DNA from: Halosolutus halophilus
GTDB taxonomy: Archaea; Halobacteriota; Halobacteria; Halobacteriales; Natrialbaceae
Assembly: GCF_022869805.1 (NCBI RefSeq)
Contig: NZ_CP094974.1
Span: forward strand, 1,860,001-1,924,000
Length of the DNA stretch: 64,000 nt
Direction: 5' to 3'
Shown: in pieces, positions 56,829 to 62,170 of the stretch
How the letters are laid out: the number at the start of each line of letters is the position of its first letter
Numbering within the stretch: position 1 is the stretch's first letter
The notes under the pieces: generated by a model
What the model was told of the DNA's origin: nothing
The model's database searches: none
Seen by the model: only the letters and a program-made list of their open reading frames with translations
Translations under genes and position numbers: made by a program

Positions 56829-56866
56829 GTACTGAATACAAAGCGCATATTAGTTACGAGATCGGT
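56829..56866 (+). repeat. Dispersed repeat copy 5 (partial)
   Basis: GTACTGAATACAAAGCGC matches the left end of the repeat; the remainder is diverged. It lies between the ATPase fragment and the kinase-like pseudogene. Confidence 0.55.
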
Positions 56867-56970
56867 GTCGAACCACTACGTACAGCGAGGGTACGTAGTA
56901 CTGGGTCACACTCCGACGTTGGAGGAAGGGCTATGCGTGTCCGACGCGAACTTCCATCGGTTCTCATCGA

Positions 56971-57617
56971 ATGCCACAGCTAGCACGCACGATTGCCATC
57001 TTGGGCCGGATGGGAGCGGGAAAACCACCCAGGCAAAACTCCTTACAGAGCGCCTGCAAGCGACCGGCTACGACGCGCAGTACGTTCACGCGCTGTACTA
57101 TCTTTCTGATAACATCCCCTATGCAAACCGGCTCCGGAGACACCTCGGCCCACGGAAAACGCGTCCCCAAGAGCCGGAACATGGCTCACTCTACCTCGTT
57201 CGACGGGTACTGTTCGGGCTCGTTAGTTTTTGGTTCGCGCTGCTCACAATTGGGATGATTTCCGTCCAGGTTCGCAACAAGAGGCAAGTCGTGGTGTTTG
57301 ACCGGTACTACCACCAGTTCTTCTATGACGTGTACGGGTCGGCAAGTATCCCGCTTTCACATCTCCTTCCCCGACCGTGGCGGATGATTTACTTGGATGC
57401 TGACCTCACCACGGTCCAGACACGGATGGACACTGTTGATCAAGCGGTCGATGGGCAGTACTATGCCACCGTCATTGACATGTACGACGAATGTGCAACA
57501 CCTGGGTGGCTATCCTTCCGTGCAGAACTACCGATTGCAACGCTTCACGAGCAAATCTTCCAGGCAATCTGGGATCGATCGAGACCAGATCGTCTCACAA
57601 CAGCGGCGATCAGATAA
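56971..57617 (+). pseudogene. Thymidylate kinase-like gene, frameshifted in the P-loop
   Basis: The start ATG at 56971 gives MPQLARTIAIL, the natural N-terminus, but then runs on as GRMGAGKPP. One frame over, from about 57000, the sequence reads GPDGSGKTTQAKLLTERLQA and continues as a full nucleoside-monophosphate kinase-like protein of about 205 residues (QVVVFDRYYHQFFYDVYGSA, then RPWRMIYLDADLTTVQTRMD). A single missing base before TTGGG explains the break. An upstream ATG at 56865 in the second frame would give an unlikely 51-residue N-terminus. It is either a recent pseudogene or a sequencing error. Confidence 0.7.
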
Positions 57618-57632
57618 GACCAATTCTCTTCC

Positions 57633-57884
57633 GTGGGAAACTGTTGGTCGACGAGGGGAGAAAACGTCGGTATATTGCTTGACGAGATCGATAAAGACTA
57701 TACTGACATCCCAAAGGTCATGGCCTATGTTGTTAAACCACATGACCGTCTTGAAGACGTCATCTCTGTCTGGGACGAGTTTTTCGACTCCCCTTACCCC
57801 TGTCATACGTTAATCGGGGTCGACCAACTGGCTCTCGAAGGACTCCTCATCGAGATCGACGTAGAGGTCCCACTTGAAGAATAG
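57633..57884 (+). pseudogene. RidA (YjgF) C-terminal fragment
   Basis: The frame ENVGILLDEIDKDYTDIPKV, AYVVKPHDRLEDVISVWDEF and SPYPCHTLIGVDQLALEG, ending LLIEIDVEVPLEE, is the C-terminal two-thirds of a RidA-type enamine deaminase. The N-terminal strand and the first motif of the family are missing, and upstream DNA does not supply them in any frame. The listed GTG start at 57633 is arbitrary. Confidence 0.65.
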
Positions 57885-58395: not shown

Positions 58396-58423
58396 AGAGT
58401 AGCGGCCCTACTGACTATATCCT

Positions 58424-58546
58424 CCGTATTCAGCACGCTACTTGTGACAATGTTGGTAGAGATCACTGAACCGTTGCTGAATACACAGCGCGAATGTGGC
58501 ACGAGCTGAAGGTCAATCTGCGGAGGACGGTGATCGGTCAGTACAG
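58424..58546 (+). repeat. Dispersed repeat copy 7, full length with inverted partner
   Basis: The full 74-bp copy is 58473-58546, from GTTGCTGAATACACAGCGCG to GGTGATCGGTCAGTACAG. An inverted left-end fragment GTATTCAGCACGCT lies at 58426-58439, about 34 bp away. The same paired layout occurs at 60597-60655. This copy is the best reference for the family. Confidence 0.75.
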
Positions 58547-59032: not shown

Positions 59033-60256
59033 CTATTCGGTGGTAGTGTCGCCGACACCATCCTCAGTCCCACTCCCAGATCTGACTGTGTCTAGTTCCT
59101 CGATCCGCCGCGTCGCCGACGGGATCATCAGCAACCGTCCGAACGGGCCTCGAGACGGTGGCTCGACGTCCGCTTCGAGCAACCATTCAAGCGCCTCTCG
59201 AACGTGCTTCGGTGACGTCGTATCGGCAGCGATTCGGTCGGCTTCGAACACTAACCGACGCCCGATCGTGAGTCGCCCAATAATAAAACCTGTTGTGACC
59301 GCTACGAGCACTACGAATTGTCCGACTGAAGATCCATATGGAAGCACGCCAACGGCGATTGCGGGTATTCCAAGGGTTAACGCGGTGACAATCGCCAGCA
59401 GCGTGGTCACGTCAAACTCGCGAACGTGTCGCTGTTCCATGCCCGCGAGCACTGCTAGGAGAGCACGATATGTCTCTTTGGACGCCTCTTCGTGTAATTT
59501 TCCGGTCACGAACAACCAACGATAGCTGGGCGGGCCGCGAACGGAGGCAGCGTGATAATTGAACGGAACTCGTGGATTGAGTTTGTACGCTGCTCGGGGA
59601 ACGAGTTCGATTCGGTTGACGGATAGACCGACGTTTTCGACGACGTCGCCGAGACGAGTAGATCCGTCCATTGGCACCGACCGTTCCGTGAGGCGGTACC
59701 AGAGTGGAGTGCCGGCGTACCAACAGACGCCATACAGTACGAGCAGCACGAGACCAGCCGCGAACTGTGCGCCATACGGCGAAAGAACGCCAGTGAGAGA
59801 CGACGAAAGAACGACGGTAGTGAGCGCGGAAAGTACGAACAATCCGCTCAAAACCGTTGCGACTCGAACGACATATTCAACTGCATTTCGTCGAGAAACG
59901 TCTGGATCCATTCCCGCAGACGTATAGGGGAATACACCAAGATACGCGCCAACGATCGGGACGATCGCGCCAGCGAGTGTTGGCAACCATGCGAGAAACT
60001 CAGCACCGGGATACGCTCCAACACCGACGACCGAAAGCACACGGCGGGTATCTTCTAGACTTCCAGTTCCAAGCAAACTTGCTATCGTTATCACCCACGC
60101 GATAACGGCGCCCGTGACAAACGACGCGAGAAGAATACGGTTCGTCTCCTGTGACGAGTCATTCACACGAGTAACGTATCGGGCCCACACTCGGAACGTA
60201 ACGAATTCCAGGAGGGTTATCCCGAACAGAGTGACAAATGGTTCAATCATAGTCAA
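59033..60256 (-). CDS. M48-fold membrane protein with altered HExxH
   Basis: 407 residues. Four helices (about 5-25, 40-65, 80-105 and 130-190) precede an M48-like stretch: WLFVTGKLHEEASKETYRAL then LAVLAGMEQRHVREFD, where the zinc motif HExxH is replaced by MEQRH. The third-ligand region VFEADRIAADTTSPKHVREA keeps its Glu. Two further helices lie between. It is likely a former HtpX/M48-type peptidase that is inactive or altered. It has lower GC than the core. Confidence 0.7.
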   Translation of the reverse strand: MTMIEPFVTLFGITLLEFVTFRVWARYVTRVNDSSQETNRILLASFVTGAVIAWVITIASLLGTGSLEDTRRVLSVVGVGAYPGAEFLAWLPTLAGAIVPIVGAYLGVFPYTSAGMDPDVSRRNAVEYVVRVATVLSGLFVLSALTTVVLSSSLTGVLSPYGAQFAAGLVLLVLYGVCWYAGTPLWYRLTERSVPMDGSTRLGDVVENVGLSVNRIELVPRAAYKLNPRVPFNYHAASVRGPPSYRWLFVTGKLHEEASKETYRALLAVLAGMEQRHVREFDVTTLLAIVTALTLGIPAIAVGVLPYGSSVGQFVVLVAVTTGFIIGRLTIGRRLVFEADRIAADTTSPKHVREALEWLLEADVEPPSRGPFGRLLMIPSATRRIEELDTVRSGSGTEDGVGDTTTE

Positions 60257-60452: not shown

Positions 60453-60596
60453 ATATCGGTGTGGAAGCGAATGTGTTAAAAGTTTGTTTATCATACTCCG
60501 CAGACGTATATTGGCAATATTCGCAAGTATACTGAGCGGATGGTTCACCGATTTCAGAGTGAAACAAACGAGGCTGCCCTGCTGAGCTCATGCTCT

Positions 60597-60663
60597 GTAT
60601 TCAGCACGCTGTTCTTGACAGCACTTCGGTAGTTCGATCAGGTCTTGCTGAATACAGGGCGCA
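60597..60663 (+). repeat. Dispersed repeat copy 8, interrupted by the IS
   Basis: Inverted left end GTATTCAGCAC (60597-60607) and TTGCTGAATAC (60645-60655), followed by AGGGCGCA (60656-60663). The continuation AAATCGGC appears after the IS at 61607, so one repeat copy was split by the insertion. Confidence 0.65.
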
Positions 60664-61598
60664 GGCCGTGTTTAGACGCTAGTAATATTGCCTCTATGTC
60701 GGGAATTCTAGGAAATGAAGCGAGCACAGGTGGATGTGCACTCCAAACTGGCCCGCTTCACCGAACGATGCGTCGAATTGTCTCAAAAAGCTGTCGGAAG
60801 CGGTTCGAAAGAACCTCTCAGCAAAGGAAAGGGTGGCTACGCTGATTGGGTGATCGTAGCGATCCATGGTCTTCGGGAATACCTCGATCACTCCTACCGA
60901 CGGTTGCTAGACGTTCTTCGAGAAATGCCAGCTATTGTCGCCAAACTCGGCCTTTCACCGGATGAGTTGCCGGACTTCACCACCGTTTGTGTTCGAAAAC
61001 AGGATCTCAAGATGCCCGTCTGGCGGATGCTGCTGCAGCTGTCGGCGGAACTATTCGATACCGGAGAGGTACAAGCAATCGACTCAACCAGCATCGCTCA
61101 TCGCTCGTCCAGCCACAACTACGCAAAGCGCGTCAAAGGAACGTTTGAGTCGGTTAAAACCACTATTCTCGTAGACTGTTCTACGCGAGCTATTCTCGAC
61201 GTACACTGCTCAATGAACCTACCACATGACACGCAGATTGCGTGGCAAGTCCTGAAAAGAAACCTCAGCAACGTGGAAACCGTCGTCGCCGACAAAGGGT
61301 TTGATTGGGATGAACTCCGGCAGATGCTGCGAAACGAGGGAATTAGACCGGTGATCAAGCATCGTGAGTTCTACTCGCTCGATGCCACACACAATGCTCG
61401 GATTGATGATGAAACCTACCATCAACGGTCTATCGCAGAATCGATGTTTTTCGCGTTACGCAAGCGATTCGGTTCAACACTTAAGGCAAGAACGTGGTTC
61501 GGACAGTTCCGCGAACTCGTCCTTAAGGCCGCCGTCAGAAACATCGAACAATCGCTCAGGGCCTAACTCAAATGATTTCGACCATCTAAACAAGACCC
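60664..61598 (+). mobile_element. IS5-like insertion sequence with 8-bp target duplication
   Basis: About 935 bp. The left end reads GGCCGTGTTTAGA and the right end, on the minus strand, GGGTCTTGTTTAGA, so the terminal inverted repeats share GG..C.TGTTTAGA with mismatches. The flanks carry an identical 8-bp AGGGCGCA directly on each side (60656-60663 and 61599-61606). An 8-bp duplication fits the ISH1 group of the IS5 family. One transposase gene (60715-61566) fills it, and it looks intact. Confidence 0.85.
60715..61566 (+). CDS. IS5-family DDE transposase
   Basis: 283 residues. The DDE residues are in EVQAIDSTSIAHRSSS (D), VETVVADKGFDWDELRQM (D) and HQRSIAESMFFALRKRFGST (E). It has the usual IS5 pattern with YxxR[S]xxE in the last motif (YHQRSIAE). 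No frameshift or stop interrupts it, so the element may still be active. GC is lower than the host core. Confidence 0.92.
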   Translation: MKRAQVDVHSKLARFTERCVELSQKAVGSGSKEPLSKGKGGYADWVIVAIHGLREYLDHSYRRLLDVLREMPAIVAKLGLSPDELPDFTTVCVRKQDLKMPVWRMLLQLSAELFDTGEVQAIDSTSIAHRSSSHNYAKRVKGTFESVKTTILVDCSTRAILDVHCSMNLPHDTQIAWQVLKRNLSNVETVVADKGFDWDELRQMLRNEGIRPVIKHREFYSLDATHNARIDDETYHQRSIAESMFFALRKRFGSTLKARTWFGQFRELVLKAAVRNIEQSLRA

Positions 61599-61974: not shown

Positions 61975-62099
61975 TTGCTGGATGTTGGGTGCAGTTCCGT
62001 GACCACTATTGGCTGGAAATTGACAGACTCGGCGTGATGGATGTATCCTCTGAGTCGGTCACCCCGCTCCTGACAGAAGCCGAGTAGTTGGAACAACCT

Positions 62100-62170
62100 G
62101 TGCTGAACTCAACGCGCGAATGTGGCACGATTGAGGATTTCAATAGAGCTAAAATGCCTGTATTGACTGC
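62100..62170 (+). repeat. Dispersed repeat copy 9
   Basis: GTGCTGAACTCAACGCGCGA, ATGTGGCACGA in the left half and CTGTATTGACTG at the right end, a diverged full-length copy. It lies in the 61975-62247 spacer, which holds no supported gene. Confidence 0.6.

Follow-up and report, generated by a model that had tools for sequence, protein, structure and literature searches.

A membrane protein gene in the window, by which we mean the whole 64,000-nucleotide stretch of DNA analyzed here, probably belongs to a clade-wide group of M48 pseudopeptidases: polytopic proteins in which the active site was lost once, the fold was kept, and selection continues to act. For the window protein itself, alignments point both to M48 ancestry and to loss of the complete site, and such a protein presumably neither holds catalytic zinc nor cleaves substrates. 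The open reading frame (ORF) is intact, with 405 codons and zero stops, and the ATG at 60250 is more likely to be the start than the TTG at 60256. The gene is present in a single copy in its source genome (5.06 Mb, single contig), which also carries five canonical M48 genes (L031-L035). The gene and its parts are as follows.

59033..60250, minus strand: putative M48-derived membrane pseudopeptidase gene, 405 amino acids from the ATG at 60250.
59033-60256, minus strand: longer ORF of the same gene, TTG start at 60256, 407 amino acids.
59696..60250, minus strand: N-terminal membrane part, residues 1-185, with about five or six hydrophobic segments by hydropathy.
59495..59542, minus strand: VRGPPSYRWLFVTGKL, the M48-domain strand region by alignment; G239 is found in 81/81 inactive members.
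59438..59452, minus strand: VLAGM, residues 267-271, at the HExxH position in alignments (H to V, E to L, H to M).
59426..59440, minus strand: MEQRH, the motif of the first-pass annotation; its first residue is the last of the true motif position, and its His falls on a non-ligand position.
59261..59410, minus strand: hydrophobic segments by hydropathy, residues ∼281-330, after the former HExxH helix and before the former ExxxD.
59237..59257, minus strand: RLVFEAD, residues 332-338; V334 replaces the third-ligand Glu, and D338 is retained.
59105..59128, minus strand: MIPSATRR, residues 375-382, the counterpart of the M48 C-terminal HPxxxxRI; R382 is found in 81/81 inactive members.

The family keeps membrane segments both ahead of the M48 domain and in the stretch from the former HExxH to the former ExxxD. 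The active members L016 and L108 have N-terminal hydrophobic segments arranged similarly to those of the window protein, as well as hydrophobic segments at the same place between HExxH and ExxxD, as judged by hydropathy.

The M48 relationship, already proposed in the first-pass annotation, becomes visible at the family level. Searched alone against Pfam, NCBIfam, and PDB sequences, the window protein gave zero M48 matches; its best Pfam row was DUF4231, under the cutoff of that model, it did not match the PF02517 profile (type II CAAX protease Rce1/CPBP), and a PADLOC search with it returned nothing useful. By contrast, 27 homologues aligned with the source genome's five canonical M48 proteins at an hhalign E value of 1.1e-14, and the PDB match of the family profile was Ste24p (4il3; hmmsearch E value of 2.9e-6). 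The window protein together with its closest homologue, L002, aligned over the full length with the active clade (hhalign E value of 6.5e-21), and a profile of this active sister clade scored the window protein at 85 bits in hmmsearch. PF01435 was matched by 7 of the 27 members at E values up to 1. A single-sequence query matched 121 of the 392 genomes searched in the order (E ≤ 1e-3); the 27-row family profile had matches in 238 of the 392 at E ≤ 1e-6, a count that takes in active relatives and some canonical M48 proteins (L168 looks like one). The named homologues of the window protein are haloarchaeal, and no relatives were found among viral contigs, phages, and plasmids. We therefore consider it confirmed, as far as sequence comparison goes, that the window protein is related to M48 by homology recognizable at the family level.

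The position of the former active site differs from that first assumed. The ORF at 59033-60256 does contain both MEQRH and FEADRIAA, which had been taken to mean that the first His had become Met, costing one ligand, while the second His and the third-ligand Glu were kept. In alignments with canonical M48 proteins from the source genome, with Ste24p, and with active relatives, however, HExxH falls on V267, L268, A, G, and M271, so that MEQRH sits four residues downstream, and both of these assignments prove wrong. In place of H, E, H, and E, the window protein has V, L, M, and V; one hmmsearch alignment against the active clade instead gives V, L, gap, and V, with a one-residue gap rather than Met at the second His. 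Even in this gapped alignment, Val and Leu occupy the first-His and catalytic-Glu positions, and the His of MEQRH pairs with the final His of HEFGHVAGRH in the active clade, which is not a ligand. The Glu of FEAD (E336) corresponds to the variable residue before AD, and the ligand position is V334. A shift of four residues thus means that all ligands were lost, not one: VLAGM stands where M48 requires the HExxH zinc motif, the third-ligand Glu of the ExxxD segment is absent, and D338, the Asp of the AD pair, is the sole residue of the motif set kept in the active-site region. The closest homologue (43% identity) has V, A, K, and V at the four site positions and KDETR where the window protein has MEQRH; the His of MEQRH is therefore not kept there.

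To place this loss in the family, we compared members collected as automatically returned search hits plus 60 hand-picked regions, a subset of all matches. The 128 hit ORFs were reduced to 98 by dropping identical-sequence repeats and to 95 by removing 3 fragments; 14 of these retain all four residues and 81 do not (55 keep none, 26 keep one). Thirty-eight additional loci (39 ORFs), of truncated form or lower score, comprised 10 active members, 27 inactive members, and 2 without the region. Combined, 132 members have the region: 24 retain all four residues, and the other 108 retain one at most; since members were hand-picked from hits, these fractions are not population estimates. All five canonical M48 proteins of the source genome retain the four residues. 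The site loss is thus common to the window protein, its closest homologue, and 108/132 members on a single branch, which supports the pseudoprotease reading put forward earlier.

Among the 108 inactive members, none has His at either zinc position. At the second-His position, 93 of them carry Arg, Lys, or Gln (67/81 in the main set and 26/27 in the additional loci); 42 retain Glu at the catalytic position (19/81 and 23/27), and 107 keep the Asp (81/81 and 26/27), the exception being L169, which has Phe there, perhaps by misalignment. At the third-ligand position, Glu persists in 7/81 and 0/27, and 59/81 have Val, Ile, or Leu. These counts suggest that the former site is still constrained in the inactive branch. 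As to whether the Met is conserved in a clade, the loss is shared, whereas Met itself occurs at the second-His position in 1/81 members, against 67/81 with Arg, Lys, or Gln; what is conserved is therefore the loss and not the Met.

Phylogenies point to one event. In a careful tree of 63 hand-picked rows, inferred with the motif columns excluded, the 44 inactive rows form one side of a branch (support, 92/93; 94% of bootstrap trees), and the other side holds 14 active family rows and the five canonical M48 proteins. A quick tree of 97 rows, from which 3 of the 95 members were left out, gave the same active/inactive split with support of 94; in this tree long branches were flagged. Two of the active sisters (L159 and L160) come from genomes that belong to the phylum but lie outside the order. 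Thus, a single loss, at the root of the large haloarchaeal branch sampled here, appears to account for the missing site. Pairwise dN/dS values were 0.215 to 0.520 in 14 close inactive pairs and 0.185 to 0.364 in 3 active pairs, suggesting that close inactive relatives are under selection of moderate strength against amino acid change.

Seven inactive members (L022, L029, L087, L088, L094, L095, and L096) form a subclade that keeps only the third-ligand Glu and has Arg at the first-His position. The 97-row tree needs 2 changes for this Glu-only label, and retention and regain are both possible. The active L159 and L160 (genomes G496 and G488), from the same phylum and outside the order, have frames of 527 and 529 amino acids.

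Modeling gave support for the M48 fold in the domain of an inactive relative. The predicted M48 domain of Halosimplex L037 (204 residues; pLDDT of 73.6; pTM of 0.69) had nine Foldseek matches at E ≤ 0.001, all of them ZMPSTE24/Ste24p, with E values from 2.6e-5 (ZMPSTE24) to 7.6e-4. In VIA, ZMPSTE24/Ste24p scored Z values of 12.6 and 12.1, and HtpX and another M48 protein scored 8.2, in a range (under about 13) that can be common for helical bundles; M48 rows nonetheless head the VIA list, in agreement with the sequence evidence. A full-length model of the window protein was poor (pLDDT of 55.7), with no M48 match and no match at all at E ≤ 0.001.

The gene in the window is diverged and relatively AT rich, and it sits in an island. 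Its GC3 is 0.56, compared with 0.84 to 0.85 in two long window ORFs, and in a single-sequence search it is 43% identical to one relative and about 36% or less to the others. A transposase gene (60715-61566; PF01609) lies ∼0.46 kb away. D257/D258 and R385, which most relatives retain, are missing. None of the conserved neighbors seen in relatives is present around the window copy, and in a synteny comparison with the locus of the closest homologue, the gene itself was the sole common element. In a single-sequence search of two other genomes of the genus, one had a different subfamily only and the other had no homologue.

The main rival to a maintained pseudopeptidase is decay of the window copy, which would then be an imported family member losing its function in an insertion sequence-rich island. 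The missing D257/D258 and R385, the divergence, the low GC3, the adjacent transposase gene, and the absent neighbors mean that this copy could be drifting, and dispersed repeats on both sides, its status as the only copy in the genome, and the patchy occurrence among genus mates fit the same picture. We nevertheless hold decay to be unlikely: 405 codons run without a stop, G239, A266, D338, and R382 are retained, and the loss of the site predates the window copy, being common to the closest homologue and the whole branch. Membership in a large haloarchaeal inactive branch suggests instead that the protein has a non-cutting job and is not a broken gene.

Two further alternatives would leave a metal site or an enzymatic one. 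The first adopts the register first proposed and supposes a metal site built on H275 and the FEAD Glu, with Met or other ligands in place of the first His. MEQRH and FEAD do exist in the sequence, but the canonical M48, Ste24p, and active-clade alignments all set HExxH on VLAGM (one of them within one residue), and the closest homologue, with KDETR, does not keep the His; the idea is already contradicted by these alignments and is by far the least probable of those weighed here. It is also improbable, if less extremely so, that the branch is still enzymatic with a rebuilt site of Arg/Lys and Asp, often with the catalytic Glu or a Gln kept. The site is indeed nonrandom, as the Arg/Lys/Gln (93/108), catalytic Glu (42/108), and Asp (107/108) counts attest. 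Yet no one replacement pattern runs throughout the branch, and the V, L, M, and V of the window protein represent none of it; we know of no Arg/Lys-Asp-type chemistry in the M48 family. The pseudopeptidase reading has points against it as well, namely the catalytic Glu kept by those 42 inactive members, the third-ligand Glu kept by 7, and dN/dS values of 0.2 to 0.5, which indicate only moderate constraint.

If the window protein is a maintained pseudopeptidase, its membrane cavity and the cleft of the former active site might still hold substrates, for example, unfolded or membrane-embedded segments. On that basis, we tentatively propose that it could serve as a non-cutting adaptor, a substrate trap, or a regulator of other membrane proteases. 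Most relatives have Arg, Lys, or Gln at the second-His position, near an Asp that nearly all members retain, as if a salt bridge had replaced the metal; the window protein carries Met there. A more speculative extension, which we regard as doubtful, is that the vacated zinc site was remodeled so that an Arg/Lys-Asp pair takes over the metal's structural role, yielding a widespread haloarchaeal substrate-holding membrane factor encoded in an old housekeeping gene cluster and, in some lineages, beside an Rce1-like protease.

In relatives, the hisG-deaminase-ahcY arrangement is an old chromosomal place for inactive members. L040, L098, and L107 show the arrangement hisG < gene > SAH/MTA-type deaminase > F13 > ahcY, with neighbor genes called by a simple composition rule, so that gene sizes may be wrong. 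L037 has the hisG/deaminase/F13 order without ahcY, which the gene caller did not find; L130 is without F13; and at L039, hisG is displaced, and hisG and TBP are in another order. At L089, L093, and L097, TBP, DUF7473, and an Rce1-like protease gene precede the family gene, and a glycerol-1-phosphate dehydrogenase adjoins the genes of the Glu-only subclade. Taken together, these neighbors (hisG, deaminase, ahcY, TBP, DUF7473, Rce1-like, and the dehydrogenase) indicate no clear common pathway.

Among known systems, Ste24p/ZMPSTE24 (M48; CAAX prenyl protease 1) provides the best PDB sequence match for the family profile (4il3) and the best fold matches for the L037 domain model, and it likewise has hydrophobic segments flanking the position of the HExxH helix. 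Unlike the window family, these proteins keep HExxH and the third-ligand Glu, and identity in the fold matches is 12 to 17%. The HtpX-like M48 proteins of the source genome share the M48-domain homology and the order of strand, HExxH helix, hydrophobic part, ExxxD, and HPxxxxRI, but the front membrane part of the window family is different and longer, and its site is lost. The active sisters (such as L016, L108-L109, L111-L116, and L159-L165) are homologous over the full length, with the same N-terminal membrane part; they differ in an intact HExxH...E and in their neighbors, a polyketide_cyc2-like protein and TrkA.

Inactive members of protease families often prove to be regulators. A parallel is offered by iRhoms, the pseudoproteases among rhomboids, which also combine clade-wide loss of the active site with a retained membrane protease fold; their fold is different, and their role has been shown by experiment, whereas the window family is known from sequence. 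Inactive homologues within M48 are known in principle; no description of the inactive haloarchaeal branch was found in searches of open-access literature, which covers few subscription journals. Two reviews of haloarchaeal membrane proteases list, in excerpts, HtpX and CAAX-type proteases (PMC9263693, PMC4343526), and the inactive M48 branch is absent from these excerpts. A large inactive branch with living active sisters would provide a clean natural case of an M48 membrane fold without cutting. As 7 of the 27 members match PF01435 (at E values up to 1), inactive members may carry an M48 metalloprotease annotation.

Inactive and active members co-occur in some genomes, e.g., G055, G184, G047, and G164; strict pairing of one inactive with one active member per genome was considered and dropped, as many genomes have one match only. 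The genome of the closest homologue (G041) was taken as Halorussus amylolyticus because its member L036 is identical in protein sequence to L039 from that species. L132-L150 and L174-L177, from family f5 of the order, match the profile only in the C-terminal part, from about position 113 to 157 onward, as though their N-terminal membrane part had been lost or had diverged beyond recognition; their site reads A, E, R, and Q in 23/23.

We also noted several features of the DNA around the gene. The transposase stretch (60690-61580) has 13 matches in its own genome, six of which (itself included) are 91 to 100% identical and nearly full length. A dispersed hairpin-like repeat of ∼110 nucleotides at window positions 58396-58520 (GTATTCAGCA ... 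TGCTGAATAC) has related stretches at 60573-60662 and 62095-62130. It has 35 matches in its own genome at E ≤ 1e-3, many of them in clusters near 0.81 to 0.89, 1.09, 1.88 to 1.93, 3.01, 3.71, and 4.94 to 4.95 Mb. At 56865-57813, overlapping frames resemble, by eye, a broken nucleotide kinase, with Gly-Ser-Gly-Lys-Thr in one frame.
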